64,000 bases of DNA, taken from NCBI RefSeq assembly GCF_023913515.1, contig NZ_CP099391.1, forward strand, positions 2,418,001 to 2,482,000, given 5' to 3'. This DNA comes from Natronococcus sp. CG52. GTDB taxonomy: Archaea; Halobacteriota; Halobacteria; Halobacteriales; Natrialbaceae. Made by a program: the position numbers and the translations under genes. This document shows, one piece after another, positions 2,436 to 7,231 of the stretch. Each line of letters begins with the position of its first letter. Position 1 is the stretch's first letter. The notes under the pieces are model-generated. The model was not told the DNA's origin, did no database searches, and was given only the letters and a program-made list of their open reading frames with translations.

Positions 2436-3071
2436 TTACGCCTCGGGCAGGTCGTCGATCAGGACGACGGCCTCGCCGTTGACGACCGTCGCGTCGGCGT
2501 CCTCGTCGCGAACGATCGTCTCGAGCCGGTACTGGTTGTTGCCGAGATCCTCGAGGATCTCGACGCGAGCGGATACTCGATCACCGATGCCGACGGGGCC
2601 GGCGAACTCGAGGTCCTGGGAGAGGTAGATCGTGAGTCCGGGCAGGCGGGCCAGGGCGGCGCTGATGAGCCCGGAGACCAGCGTCCCATGGATGATACGC
2701 TCGCCGAATCGGGTGTCGGCGGCGAACGCGTCGTCGAGGTGAAGACGGTTCGTGTCGCCGCTGATCTCCGCGAACGCACGGACGTCTTCCTCGGAGAGCT
2801 CCTTCTCGAACGTGACGGCGTCGCCGGCGCCGAGGTTCGCCGGATCGTCGACGCTGCGGTCGAACACCCAGTCGGTATCGGAGTACTCGAGCGACGGGAT
2901 CGCTGCGTCCGTCGTCTCGGCGATCGATCTGCCGTTCGTCTCGGTCGAATCCATCGCGGAGACGACGGCGCGGTTCGCTGCGGTCGCGTTCTCGAGGAGG
3001 GCTCGGGTCGTCGCCGACCAGACGTTCGCCAGGGTGGCAAAACCGTTCTCACCGGCGTTCTGGTGTGACAT
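2436..3071 (-). CDS. phaJ: MaoC-family (R)-specific enoyl-CoA hydratase of the PHA locus
   Basis: A 211-aa protein with a hot-dog MaoC hydratase domain from about residue 75 on. The hydratase-2 motif is seen as SGDTNRLHLDDAFA with the expected catalytic Asp106 and His111. It would hydrate trans-2-enoyl-CoA to (R)-3-hydroxyacyl-CoA, supplying monomers to PHA synthase. The first 65 residues are not part of the hydratase fold; residues 10-40 (FATLANVWSATTRALLENAT and onward) look like an amphipathic phasin-like helix. The gene is divergent from phaR and starts about 30 bases from a TATA-like CATAACC, so the transcript is probably leaderless. The haloarchaeal order maoC-phaR-phaP-phaE-phaC supports the role. 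Confidence 0.85.
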   Translation of the reverse strand: MSHQNAGENGFATLANVWSATTRALLENATAANRAVVSAMDSTETNGRSIAETTDAAIPSLEYSDTDWVFDRSVDDPANLGAGDAVTFEKELSEEDVRAFAEISGDTNRLHLDDAFAADTRFGERIIHGTLVSGLISAALARLPGLTIYLSQDLEFAGPVGIGDRVSARVEILEDLGNNQYRLETIVRDEDADATVVNGEAVVLIDDLPEA

Positions 3072-3239
3072 CTCGTGAACGCATAGGTGTGAGGAGGTTA
3101 TGACTCCTTTGAATGGACTAATTCAGAATTACCGCCATTATTCTCGGTAACGGTCGGTTGCGCGGCCCGCTCGAGGGTGTGAGAGCCGTCGATCGGTCGC
3201 GGAATCGGCGGGGCCCGGGTCACAGATACAGTGAACACC
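3072..3239. other. maoC-phaR divergent intergenic region
   Basis: Carries the maoC promoter: TATA-like CATAACC on the minus strand (3096-3102), with TTTGAATG-gact-AATTCAG (3108-3126) just upstream of it. The segment 3140-3230 is GC-rich and seems to hold nothing else. Confidence 0.5.
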
Positions 3240-3281
3240 ATTCAATGACATTCAATGGTATTCAGCGGAAACGCTTATCAA
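3240..3281 (+). promoter_or_regulatory. phaRP promoter with three 10-bp-phased ATTCA repeats
   Basis: ATTCAATG occurs at 3240 and 3250, and ATTCAG at 3260, in exact 10-base register on one DNA face. They end just upstream of a TATA box (TTATCAA, 3275-3281) lying 24-30 bases before the phaR ATG at 3305. Transcription would begin at or next to the ATG. PhaR of Haloferax mediterranei is known to bind its own phaRP promoter, so these repeats are candidate PhaR sites. A related TTTGAATG-gact-AATTCAG lies at 3108-3126 before maoC. Confidence 0.6.
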
Positions 3282-3304: not shown

Positions 3305-3613
3305 ATGACGGACGACTCCGACCAATCGCCCTGGTTCCCGCCTGCGATGTTCGCCGAGCAGATGCAGGACGCCGGAGAGCAGGTCGCCGAATCCCAGCAG
3401 GAGATGTTGAAACAGTTGCTGCAGGCGAGTTCCGCGAATCCGCTTCAGAACGCGTCGAACCCTATGAACATGGGAACGGCGACGTTCAAGGCTCGCGTCC
3501 AGAGCGGCGGTCGGATCAGCATTCCCGAACCCGAACGAGACGCCCTCGACATTCAGGAGGGTGACATCGTTCAGACGATCGTCGTCCCCGTCAAACGAAA
3601 CCGCGAGGAGTAA
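3305..3613 (+). CDS. phaR: PhaR, AbrB-type regulator of PHA granule genes
   Basis: A 102-aa protein, taking the ATG at 3305 rather than the GTG one codon upstream because of the TATA spacing. The C-terminal half (about 57-102) is an AbrB/SpoVT swapped-hairpin DNA-binding domain: FKARVQSGGRISIPEPERDA followed by LDIQEGD. The N-terminal half contains a PWFPPAMFAEQMQDAGEQ helix resembling the granule-binding start of PhaE/PhaP. This fits a regulator that binds either the PHA granule or DNA and so matches phasin output to granule surface, as described for Haloferax mediterranei PhaR. It ends 3 bases before phaP and is surely cotranscribed with it. Confidence 0.85.
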   Translation: MTDDSDQSPWFPPAMFAEQMQDAGEQVAESQQEMLKQLLQASSANPLQNASNPMNMGTATFKARVQSGGRISIPEPERDALDIQEGDIVQTIVVPVKRNREE

Positions 3614-3616
3614 CCA

Positions 3617-4102
3617 ATGACACAGAACCCATTCACCGCAGTCTTCGACGCACAGCGCACCGCCATCGAACAGAGCCAGAACTTCACCCACGACGCCCTC
3701 GAGGCGCAGCAGACGTCGTTCCACGCCTTCGTCGACGCCGTCGAGTCCTCGAGCGACGTCGTCGAATCCAACGCCGACCTCACCAAGGGTGCCGCCCACG
3801 CCTACCTCGACGCCGTCGAGGCCTCGCTGCCGGAGGAGAGCGCCGACTTCGAAGCGCTCCGCGAGATGATTGACGAGGGCGTCGACTCCGCGACCGAGGC
3901 CCAGACCGAGTCGCTCGAGTCCATCGCCGACGCGCTCGAGGAGTCCGGGGCCGCCTACGACGAGTTCGCCGCCAGCTACACCAACGTCGTCGACAGCTCC
4001 TTCGACGCCGCACTCGAGGCCCACGAGCAGATCGAGCAGAACGCGTCGGTCGTCGCCGAGAACGTCGAGGACGCCGCCGACGAGTTCGACGTCTCCGCGT
4101 AA
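3617..4102 (+). CDS. phaP: PhaP, PHA granule-associated phasin
   Basis: A 161-aa, very acidic, almost wholly alpha-helical protein with no Cys and no signal peptide. It starts MTQNPFTAVFDAQRTAIEQS and carries repeated heptad-like stretches rich in Ala, Asp, Glu and Ser, as in haloarchaeal phasins that coat PHA granules. It lies between phaR and phaE in the order known from Haloferax and Haloarcula. The assignment rests on this position and composition as well as similarity of the first 20 residues to known archaeal phasins. Expression is probably controlled by PhaR. Confidence 0.85.
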   Translation: MTQNPFTAVFDAQRTAIEQSQNFTHDALEAQQTSFHAFVDAVESSSDVVESNADLTKGAAHAYLDAVEASLPEESADFEALREMIDEGVDSATEAQTESLESIADALEESGAAYDEFAASYTNVVDSSFDAALEAHEQIEQNASVVAENVEDAADEFDVSA

Positions 4103-4144: not shown

Positions 4145-4690
4145 ATGACAGACTCACCACCCCAGTCACAGAACTGGAACGCATTCGTCGAACAGTGGAA
4201 CGAGCAGTTCCTCGACGCGCTCGAGGACAACATGGAAGCGCAGGCCCGATTCGTCGAAAGCTGGTCCGAGACCGTCGGCGAGATGTCCGAGGATGAGGAG
4301 ATCTCAGAGGGGGTCGAGGGCTACGCTCGGGCCTACGAGACGTGGATGAACGCCTCACAGCAGATGGTCGACCGGATGAACGACACGCTCGAGGGCGAGG
4401 ACGTCGAACTCGAGGAGTTCCGCGACGTCTGGCTCAACACGGCTAACGACGCCTTCAAGGAGGTCATGTCGACGACCGCCTTCGCGAAGATGACCGGCGA
4501 GACCGTCGGCGACGTGCTGGAACTCCAGCAGCAGGCCGACGAGGCCGCCGAGGAGACGCTGCACACGCTCGGATTCGCGACCGAAAGCGACGTCGTCGAG
4601 GTTGGCGATCGACTCGTCGAACTCGAGCGCCGTCAGCACGCCGTCGAGCAAAAACTCGACCGCGTTCTCGACCACCTCGAAGAGCAATGA
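4145..4690 (+). CDS. phaE: PhaE subunit of class III PHA synthase
   Basis: A 181-aa helical protein that starts [20 protein letters not shown] and ends in a leucine-containing coiled coil ([20 protein letters not shown] and on). Archaeal class III PHA synthase needs this non-catalytic subunit together with PhaC. Its stop overlaps the phaC start (ATGA-type overlap at 4687-4690), so the two subunits are translationally coupled. A 42-base gap separates it from phaP; it contains AT-rich sequence, and an internal promoter is possible. Confidence 0.9.
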
Positions 4691-6321
4691 AGAACCCGTA
4701 TACGACCGTCCTGGAGATGCAACGCCAGGCCTGGGAGGGCGCCGCCGGCCTCGCCGAGAAGACGCGGGTCGCTCCGGATCGGACCGAGACCATCGAGAAC
4801 ACCGAGGTTGGACAGACGCCGAGCGAAGTCGTCTACGAGGAGAACAAGCTCAAACTTCTCCACTACGAGGCGAAGACCGAGGAGCAACACGACATCCCCA
4901 TCCTCATCGTCTACGCGCTGATCAACAAGCCGTACATCCTCGACCTCCAGCCCGACCGCTCGGTGGTTCAGACGCTGCTCGAGGCCGGGTTCGACGTCTA
5001 CATGATCGACTGGGGCGAGCCGTCGGCGCTCGACCGCTCGCTCTCGCTCGACGACTACGTCAACCGCTACATCGATAACTGCGTCGACGAGGTCCGCGAG
5101 CGCTCCGGTCAGGACGCGATCAACATCCTCGGCTACTGCATGGGCGGGACGATGTCGGCCATGTACGCCGCCCTCGAACCCGAGAAGGTCGAAAACCTCG
5201 CACTGATGGCGGCCGGTCTCTGTTTCACCGGCGAGGGTGGCGTCCTGGAGCTCTGGGGCGCCGAAGACTACTACGACCCCGAGACGGTCACCGACACCTT
5301 CGGCAACGTCCCGGCGGAGTTCTTAGACGTCGGCTTCGCGCTGATGGATCCCGTCGCGAACAACGTGACGAAGTACGTCCGGTTCTACGACAACATGGAG
5401 GACGAGGACTTCGTCGAGAACTTCGCCCGGATGGAGCGCTGGCTCGACGAGGGAATCGACGTCGCGGGCGTCGCCTACGAGGAGTTCATCGAGGACATCT
5501 ACCAGGAGAACAAGCTGGTCGAGAACGAACTCGAGCTCGGCGGCGAGCGCGTCGACGTCGGCGAGATCGACATGCCCGTCCTCCAGATCGTCGCGGAGTA
5601 CGACCACCTCATCCCGCCGGAAGCGTCCAAACCGTTCAACGAGGCGATCTCCTCCGACGACACCGAGATCATGGAGTTCCCGACGGGACACATCGGCATG
5701 TCCGTCTCCTCGCGGAGCCACGCCGAACTCTGGCCCGACGTTTGTGACTGGTTCGAAGCGCGGTCGGACGGGGAGGGCGAGACGCCTCCGGCGTCTCGTG
5801 AAGGCGGCGAAGCCGTCGGTGCCGAGGCGACCGAACCGGAGACGCCCGCGCCCGAGGAGCCGGACGCCGCTCTCGCCGAAGACGTCGAGGGCAACGAGAC
5901 GGGTCCCGAAGACCTCTCGGAAGAGGGGGGTACGACCGCCGAAACGGCCGAAGCGAATCCCGGTGCCGACGTTGACGCCGAGACGAGCGAGCACCACGGC
6001 GCGGACCGATCGGACGAAGAGATTATCGAGCGCGGCGAGGACGACATCCAGGAGGAATCCGCCGAACCGGGCGAGATGAACGTCGACGAGGACATCGTCG
6101 AGGAGGTCGCCGACGAGACCGCTTCGTCGGCGATCGAGTCCGAAACGGACGACCTCACCGACCTGAACGGCGTCGGACAAGCCTACGCCGACGAGCTCGC
6201 CGCGGCCGGCGTCGAGACGTTCGACCAACTCGCCGCCGTCGACACTGCGGAACTCGCCGCCGAAACGGAAATCCCCCCGAGCCGGATCGAAGACTGGATC
6301 GAACAGGCCCAGCAGCGGTAA
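4687..6321 (+). CDS. phaC: PhaC subunit of class III PHA synthase, with a long C-terminal extension carrying an HhH domain
   Basis: A 544-aa alpha/beta-hydrolase-type polymerase joining (R)-3-hydroxyacyl-CoA units. The lipase-like box GYCMGG supplies Cys151; Asp306 (AEYDHLIPP) and His335 (PTGHIG) complete the triad, with the same 155- and 184-residue spacing as the C162/D317/H346 triad of Haloarcula marismortui PhaC. The catalytic fold ends near residue 360. The remaining 180 residues are a low-complexity acidic linker followed by a helix-hairpin-helix-like module (about 490-544, [20 protein letters not shown]). Haloarchaeal PhaC proteins are known to be longer at this end than bacterial ones; a DNA-binding-type fold there is notable. 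Confidence 0.93.
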
Positions 6322-6487: not shown

Positions 6488-7231
6488 ATGTCCATGGACG
6501 GACGCACCTGTGTCATCACAGGATCGGCGCGCGGGATCGGACGCGGGATCGCAGAACATCTCGGCGAGAAGGGGGCAAACGTCGTCATCAACTACCGGTC
6601 ATCCGAGGGGGCAGCACACGAGGCGGTCGAGGCCATCGAAAGCGCCGGTGGAAGTGCCGTCACGGCGCAGGCCGACGTCTCCATCCTCGAGGACGTCGAA
6701 CACATGCGTGAGGTCTGCCACGAGGCGTTCGGCCCGGCCGACGTCCTGGTGAACAACGCCGGCATCACCGCCGACAAGCAGTTCACCGAGATGACCCGCG
6801 AGGAGTGGGACCGCGTGATGGACGTCAACTTAGGCGGGATGTTCAACTGCACCCAGACGTTCTACGACGACATCTGGAACGCCGACGAGGGACGGCTCAT
6901 CAACATCTCGAGCGTGGTCGGCAAACAGGGGAACTTCGGCCAAGCGAACTACGCCACCGCGAAAAGCGGAATGTTCGGGTTCACCCGGACGATCGCGCTC
7001 GAACTCGCCCAGGGCGGTTCGACGGCGAACTGCGTCGCACCGGGTTTTACCCGAACGGACATGGTCGAGAGCGTTCCCGACCACGTGCTCGATCGCATCA
7101 TCGCCGGCATCCCGCTCGAGCGCCTGGCGGAGGTCGAAGACATCGCCGCCGTCGTCTGTTTCCTCGCGGGGCGGAACTCCTCGTACGTCACGGGCGAAGT
7201 GATCGACGTCAACGGCGGGATGGACCTGTAG
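6488..7231 (+). CDS. phaB: Acetoacetyl-CoA reductase (short-chain dehydrogenase)
   Basis: A 247-aa classical SDR. The cofactor loop is TGSARGIG (11-18), followed by NNAG (89-92), the catalytic Ser141/Ser142 (ISSVVG), and Tyr155 and Lys159 in YATAK. The end, YVTGEVIDVNGGMDL, is typical of the FabG/PhaB group. It would reduce acetoacetyl-CoA or longer 3-ketoacyl-CoA with NADPH to the (R)-3-hydroxyacyl-CoA used by PhaEC. FabG and PhaB cannot be separated by motif alone; the position right after phaC favours PhaB. No beta-ketothiolase gene is present in the window. An alternative start is the ATG two codons in (6494). Confidence 0.85.
   Translation: MSMDGRTCVITGSARGIGRGIAEHLGEKGANVVINYRSSEGAAHEAVEAIESAGGSAVTAQADVSILEDVEHMREVCHEAFGPADVLVNNAGITADKQFTEMTREEWDRVMDVNLGGMFNCTQTFYDDIWNADEGRLINISSVVGKQGNFGQANYATAKSGMFGFTRTIALELAQGGSTANCVAPGFTRTDMVESVPDHVLDRIIAGIPLERLAEVEDIAAVVCFLAGRNSSYVTGEVIDVNGGMDL

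Follow-up and report, generated by a model that had tools for sequence, protein, structure and literature searches.

A TATA-phased 10-bp half-site lattice upstream of phaRP as the probable operator of the AbrB-like repressor PhaR in haloarchaea

Introduction

The 64,000-nucleotide stretch of the Natronococcus sp. CG52 genome analysed here (the window) contains a group of short repeats directly upstream of the BRE/TATA of phaRP. Three questions are raised by this locus, namely which part of the repeats carries the signal, which protein reads it and which other genes are under the same control. The genes in the window are arranged as a divergent maoC, the operon phaR-phaP-phaE-phaC and then a phaB-like reductase (Table 1), and the order of phaR and phaP matches that annotated in Haloferax larsenii. 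The operon downstream, the divergent maoC and the repeats directly upstream of the BRE together correspond to the layout of a haloarchaeal phaRP operator. The phaR transcript is likely leaderless.

PhaR of Haloferax mediterranei represses phaRP, and four tandem repeats in the phaRP promoter are thought to be the PhaR site (Cai et al. 2015, as covered in passages of the reviews PMC9049629, PMC6085418 and PMC7137286). The same review passages place a semi-palindromic negative element just upstream of the phaRP BRE in Haloferax. As far as these passages describe the H. mediterranei system, its autorepression, its tandem or semi-palindromic repeats directly upstream of the BRE and the AbrB-like C-terminal domain of its PhaR are all likenesses to the locus described here, and the tandem repeats and PhaR autorepression are already published (Cai et al. 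2015). What appears to be new is the consensus, the phasing of the lattice to the TATA box with half-sites in either orientation, and the regulon of dispersed phasin genes; neither these nor the exact 10-bp spacing, the class-wide conservation or the unlinked phasin targets were found in the literature searched, in which Cai et al. 2015 is represented by reviews.

Table 1. Coordinates of the features discussed (window positions unless a genome coordinate is given)
Feature	Position	Strand	Remarks
maoC/phaJ	2436..3071	-	divergent; own CCAAAGGAGTCATAAC-like promoter element at about 3093-3115; no lattice
Operator lattice CCATTCAATGACATTCAATGGTATTCAGCGG	3238..3268	+	half-site slots every 10 bp; ungapped conservation in 60 phaR promoters
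Lattice slots	CCA 3238, TGA 3246, TGG 3256, CGG 3266	+	ATYNR spacers between
Three ATTCA words	3240..3264	+	spacer part of the lattice; 10-bp register
phaRP BRE/TATA, AAACG CTTATCAA	3269..3281	+	TATA core CTTAT 3274-3278
phaR	3305..3613	+	AbrB-like DNA-binding protein; start ATG 3305 or GTG 3302
phaP	3617..4102	+	haloarchaeal phasin; same operon as phaR
phaB-like reductase	6488..7231	+	own promoter CAGGTCGTTATATACC; no lattice
phasin2	G000:C1:3084201-3085040 (L070:4202-5041)		279-aa phasin-like gene; 0.66 Mb from phaRP; own lattice

Results and Discussion

Repeats upstream of phaRP in the window

The window reads ATTCAATGAC at 3240, ATTCAATGGT at 3250 and ATTCAGCGGA at 3260, followed by AACGCTTATCAA, inside which TTATCAA lies at 3275-3281, downstream of the ATTCA triplet. 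The letters thus bear out the preliminary description, which had noted three ATTCA words in exact 10-bp register before the phaRP BRE/TATA. The pattern ATTCAN5ATTCAN5ATTCA occurs a single time in the whole 4.74 Mb genome (zero for the reversed-pattern control), and 20,000 dinucleotide shuffles of the intergenic region between maoC and phaR yielded no ATTCA triple at 10-bp spacing.

Conserved unit and its phase

We compared the promoters of 60 haloarchaeal loci with PhaR relatives (43 to 92% identical) without gaps, anchored on the TATA core, and this comparison replaced a gapped MAFFT alignment. The TATA-anchored profile of the phaR promoters shows a 10-bp wave of conservation, with CCAT at -36, ATGSYAT from -29 to -23, RATGGTAT from -20 to -13 and RGTGGAAA running into the BRE, followed by CTTAT; GGAAAnnCTTAT at the phaRP BRE/TATA is nearly invariant. 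In the 61 phaR upstream regions, 70 TGG-TGG pairs lie exactly 10 bp apart against 2.0 expected from shuffles, while distances of 9 and 11 gave 0 and 1 pairs, respectively. Pairs of the longer words at 10 bp are similarly in excess over shuffles (31 vs 0.3 for ATGG and 20 vs 0.1 for CCAT). ATTCA as the motif was rejected, with just 3 ATTCA-ATTCA pairs at this distance in the 61 promoters against the 70 of TGG.

The lattice slots are found at a fixed phase from the TATA core, at -6, -16, -26, -36 and sometimes -46. TGG or its complement CCA occupies 133 of the 180 slots and a further 27 hold a half-site one base off (the +1 register), which may reflect the choice of the TATA anchor; the remaining eight registers contain 0-4 half-sites each. 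The orientation of the half-sites is interchangeable, slot -26 having TGG in 25 promoters and CCA in 19. Since TGG/CCA dominates the slots and ATTCA pairs are rare, ATTCA represents one form of a variable spacer, ATYNR, and what is conserved is the TGG/CCA half-site that recurs every 10 bp. The suggested conservation of phased ATTCA words therefore stands in part: a helix-phased element upstream of the phaRP BRE/TATA is kept in relatives, and ATTCA is not its conserved word. In the window itself, the slot at 3246 and the proximal slot at 3266 are degenerate. The final slot of the lattice abuts or overlaps the phaRP BRE, and the H. larsenii phaRP promoter carries the same lattice (CCATCTAATACCATCTGTTGCCATCAAATGG).

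maoC and phaB promoters

It had also been proposed that related ATTCA motifs unite maoC, phaRP and phaB into a small regulon, and the window does hold ATTCA words close to each of these promoters. In relatives, the word is kept at none of them. On the maoC side it partly overlaps a conserved maoC promoter element, CCAAAGRAGTCATAAY, where relatives read CAGCCAAAG; on the phaB side it is found close to the predicted start site of phaB and is not kept either, and the phaB promoter carries its own conserved CAGGTCGTTATWTACC. The maoC element (window about 3093-3115) is strongly conserved across Natrialbaceae.

A 24-bp array consensus is matched with at most 3 mismatches in 48 of the 61 phaR promoters. 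Its best match in the window has 8 mismatches on both the maoC and the phaB side, and among the upstream regions of relatives (45 for maoC, 44 for phaB) no match was found within 5 mismatches, the best having 6. The comparison of haloarchaeal upstream regions thus retains 10-bp phasing at phaR and finds no 10-bp array at maoC or phaB. These results contradict an ATTCA-based regulon of these three genes, which is very improbable; the idea of a small regulon survives with other members, as a PhaR regulon probably exists in which unlinked phasin-like genes take the place of maoC and phaB.

Unlinked phasin-like genes with the same lattice

When the own genome was scanned with a 31-bp consensus at up to 3 mismatches, only phaRP was matched. 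The two-unit consensus at up to 1 mismatch gave phaRP and a second site, G000:C1:3084114, which reads ACCATTCAAT ACCATTTAGA ACCATACAGA GGTATGCAAG and is followed by CCTTATACC and a 279-aa gene, phasin2 (Table 1). The phasin2 product is 24% identical to PhaP over 139 aa (pairwise E=9e-11), a similarity that qualifies it as phasin-like, and it ends in a HHH domain like the C-terminal end of PhaC. Judging from its sequence, phasin2 would function at PHA granules. Next to it, in divergent orientation, lies a gene whose product is a carbonic-anhydrase-like hexapeptide protein.

The phasin2 orthologues of other genera (L073-L078) keep the array before TGCAAGCCCGCCACTTAT. In two genomes from the same genus as the window, the phasin2 promoters (L079 and L080) show no clear array although PhaR is present, which possibly reflects loss of control. 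Scanning of 61 family genomes revealed further unlinked sites before PhaP-like genes, among them a second family, phasin3, of about 335 aa. All phasin3 orthologues that were fetched have TGG/CCA half-sites in register upstream of CTTAT, some of them with fewer slots. The unlinked phasin promoters keep the phase of phaR (modulo 10 from the TATA core) for 31 of 37 TGG and 48 of 56 CCA half-sites; these counts include orthologues repeatedly, and the distinct promoters are those of phaR, phasin2, phasin3 and other phasins. The phasin2 array is situated exactly one turn further upstream than that of the phaR promoters.

PhaC (window 4687-6321) has a C-terminal extension that ends in an HHH_5 domain similar to the HHH of phasin2 and phasin3, possibly a common granule-associated module. 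An open frame of 680 aa that includes a long acidic stretch terminates in a third phasin-like segment with an HHH domain (L166; G000:C1:2389116-2389619, minus strand), and the genome scans gave no lattice match there.

Class-wide distribution and co-occurrence with PhaR

Among 145 haloarchaeal genomes, PhaR was found in 78, in one of them (G119) by a short AbrB-only match. Sites with at most 2 mismatches are present in 37 of the 78 genomes with PhaR and in none of the 67 genomes that lack it (Fisher p=6e-13, an indicative value as the genomes are not phylogenetically independent). Five of the six unlinked sites precede phasin-like genes, the one in G014 having already been found by the family scan. 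The sixth is located between archease-like and phosphoglycerate-mutase-like genes. It is a perfect array, ACCATCTGATGCCATTCAATGCCAT, seen in one genome (L214 about 1543; G170:C1:2527842), and it is possible that it marks an extra PhaR target.

The same data bear on whether the repeats are due to chance or are generic A+T-rich promoter repeats devoid of regulatory meaning. The single words are short, and some matches with 3 mismatches elsewhere are clearly chance; unlinked sites with exactly 3 mismatches fall mostly within coding DNA and were likewise regarded as chance. However, a chance origin is difficult to reconcile with the 70 pairs (2 expected) spaced at exactly 10 bp, with background DNA flanking the loci that holds no match within 4 mismatches and with the complete absence of sites from genomes devoid of PhaR, and we regard it as extremely improbable.

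PhaR and related repressors

PhaR is AbrB-like. All 15 members examined match TIGR01439, the window protein with 22.8 bits, which is under the curated cut-off of 28.3, and the profile of PDB 2glw is matched with E=1e-7. From these profile matches, PhaR is predicted to have an AbrB/SpoVT/MazE-type domain, the swapped-hairpin DNA-binding fold. The AlphaFold model of PhaR from 15 sequences (mean pLDDT 57, pTM 0.21) was too poor for a fold search.

The boxes of E. coli MraZ are TGGG direct repeats with a 10-bp period, and each MraZ chain carries two AbrB folds; MraZ is known to use direct repeats only. In contrast, PhaR has one domain and its half-sites flip orientation (25 TGG vs 19 CCA at slot -26), so that the phaRP lattice is not made of same-strand direct repeats only. 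The likeness to MraZ is a convergent resemblance and not membership. It lies in an autorepressor acting on its own promoter through tandem repeats, as described for MraZ of the AbrB superfamily (dcw/mraZ; PMC8475190). The bacterial PhaR of the Cupriavidus necator type is, like the haloarchaeal one, a polymer-sensing repressor of phasin genes and can control several targets. However, it is an unrelated protein with PHB_acc domains, for which no Pfam match was obtained in haloarchaeal PhaR, and its phaP and phaR have separate promoters.

Proposed operator and regulon

An operator for a repressor of the AbrB type is the best explanation of the repeats. The lattice, its conservation, its phase, its distribution and its co-occurrence with PhaR are observed directly, and it is very likely that PhaR uses the repeats as its operator at an autoregulated phaRP and that the same lattice before dispersed phasin-like genes serves PhaR as well. 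PspR, which is reported to bind the H. mediterranei phaRP promoter, is the main rival to PhaR. The lattice might be bound by a PspR-like protein, or by a general bendable-DNA or nucleoid protein, with PhaR acting elsewhere. PspR is enriched at the H. mediterranei phaRP promoter and shifts it weakly, and the lattice co-occurs with the pha cluster just as it does with PhaR; a different regulator that always accompanies this cluster would show the same co-occurrence. However, the binding of PspR is described as weak, and searches of the text of the PspR paper returned no repeat motif. The lattice is moreover specific to phaR and phasin genes, and it is located in PhaR's own promoter by the BRE, where, according to the review passages, the PhaR-dependent negative element lies. 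Another regulator of this kind is therefore improbable.

With PhaR as the reader, the mechanism may be pictured as follows. The half-sites, TGG on either strand, would be presented on one face of the helix by their 10-bp spacing with ATYNR spacers, and the proximal slot would merge with the BRE. PhaR would dock by its C-terminal AbrB-like domain, its dimers lined up next to one another on the lattice, and thereby block the access of TFB/TBP, keeping phaR and phaP off when polymer is scarce. Once PHA granules form, PhaR would be titrated onto them and the promoter would open. From the same phased lattice before dispersed phasin-like genes, one of them in the own genome, we infer that the supply of granule-coat proteins is under coordinated control by PhaR. 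Direct binding of PhaR, the packing of its dimers and the occlusion of TFB are inferred, as is its control over the unlinked phasins.

It is likely, with somewhat more reserve than for the operator itself, that a class-wide PhaR regulon exists, made up of phaRP and two or more dispersed phasin-like families. It would be read via the 10-bp lattice with free half-site orientation and a fixed TATA phase at the promoters of different genes, placing the regulator on a single face of the helix with respect to TBP/TFB.

Conclusions

Sequence comparison suggests that one repressor, PhaR, very probably controls the coat proteins of bioplastic granules, including those whose genes are located far off in the genome. 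A repressor of a single promoter in one model organism would thus become a predictable regulon across haloarchaea, with phasin2 and phasin3 as new granule-coat candidates in organisms that attract interest as bioplastic producers. The lattice would also offer a clear example from nature of an operator in archaea that keeps phase with the basal promoter, in which the packing of AbrB-type proteins on DNA and the blocking of TFB become testable through shifts of single repeats.
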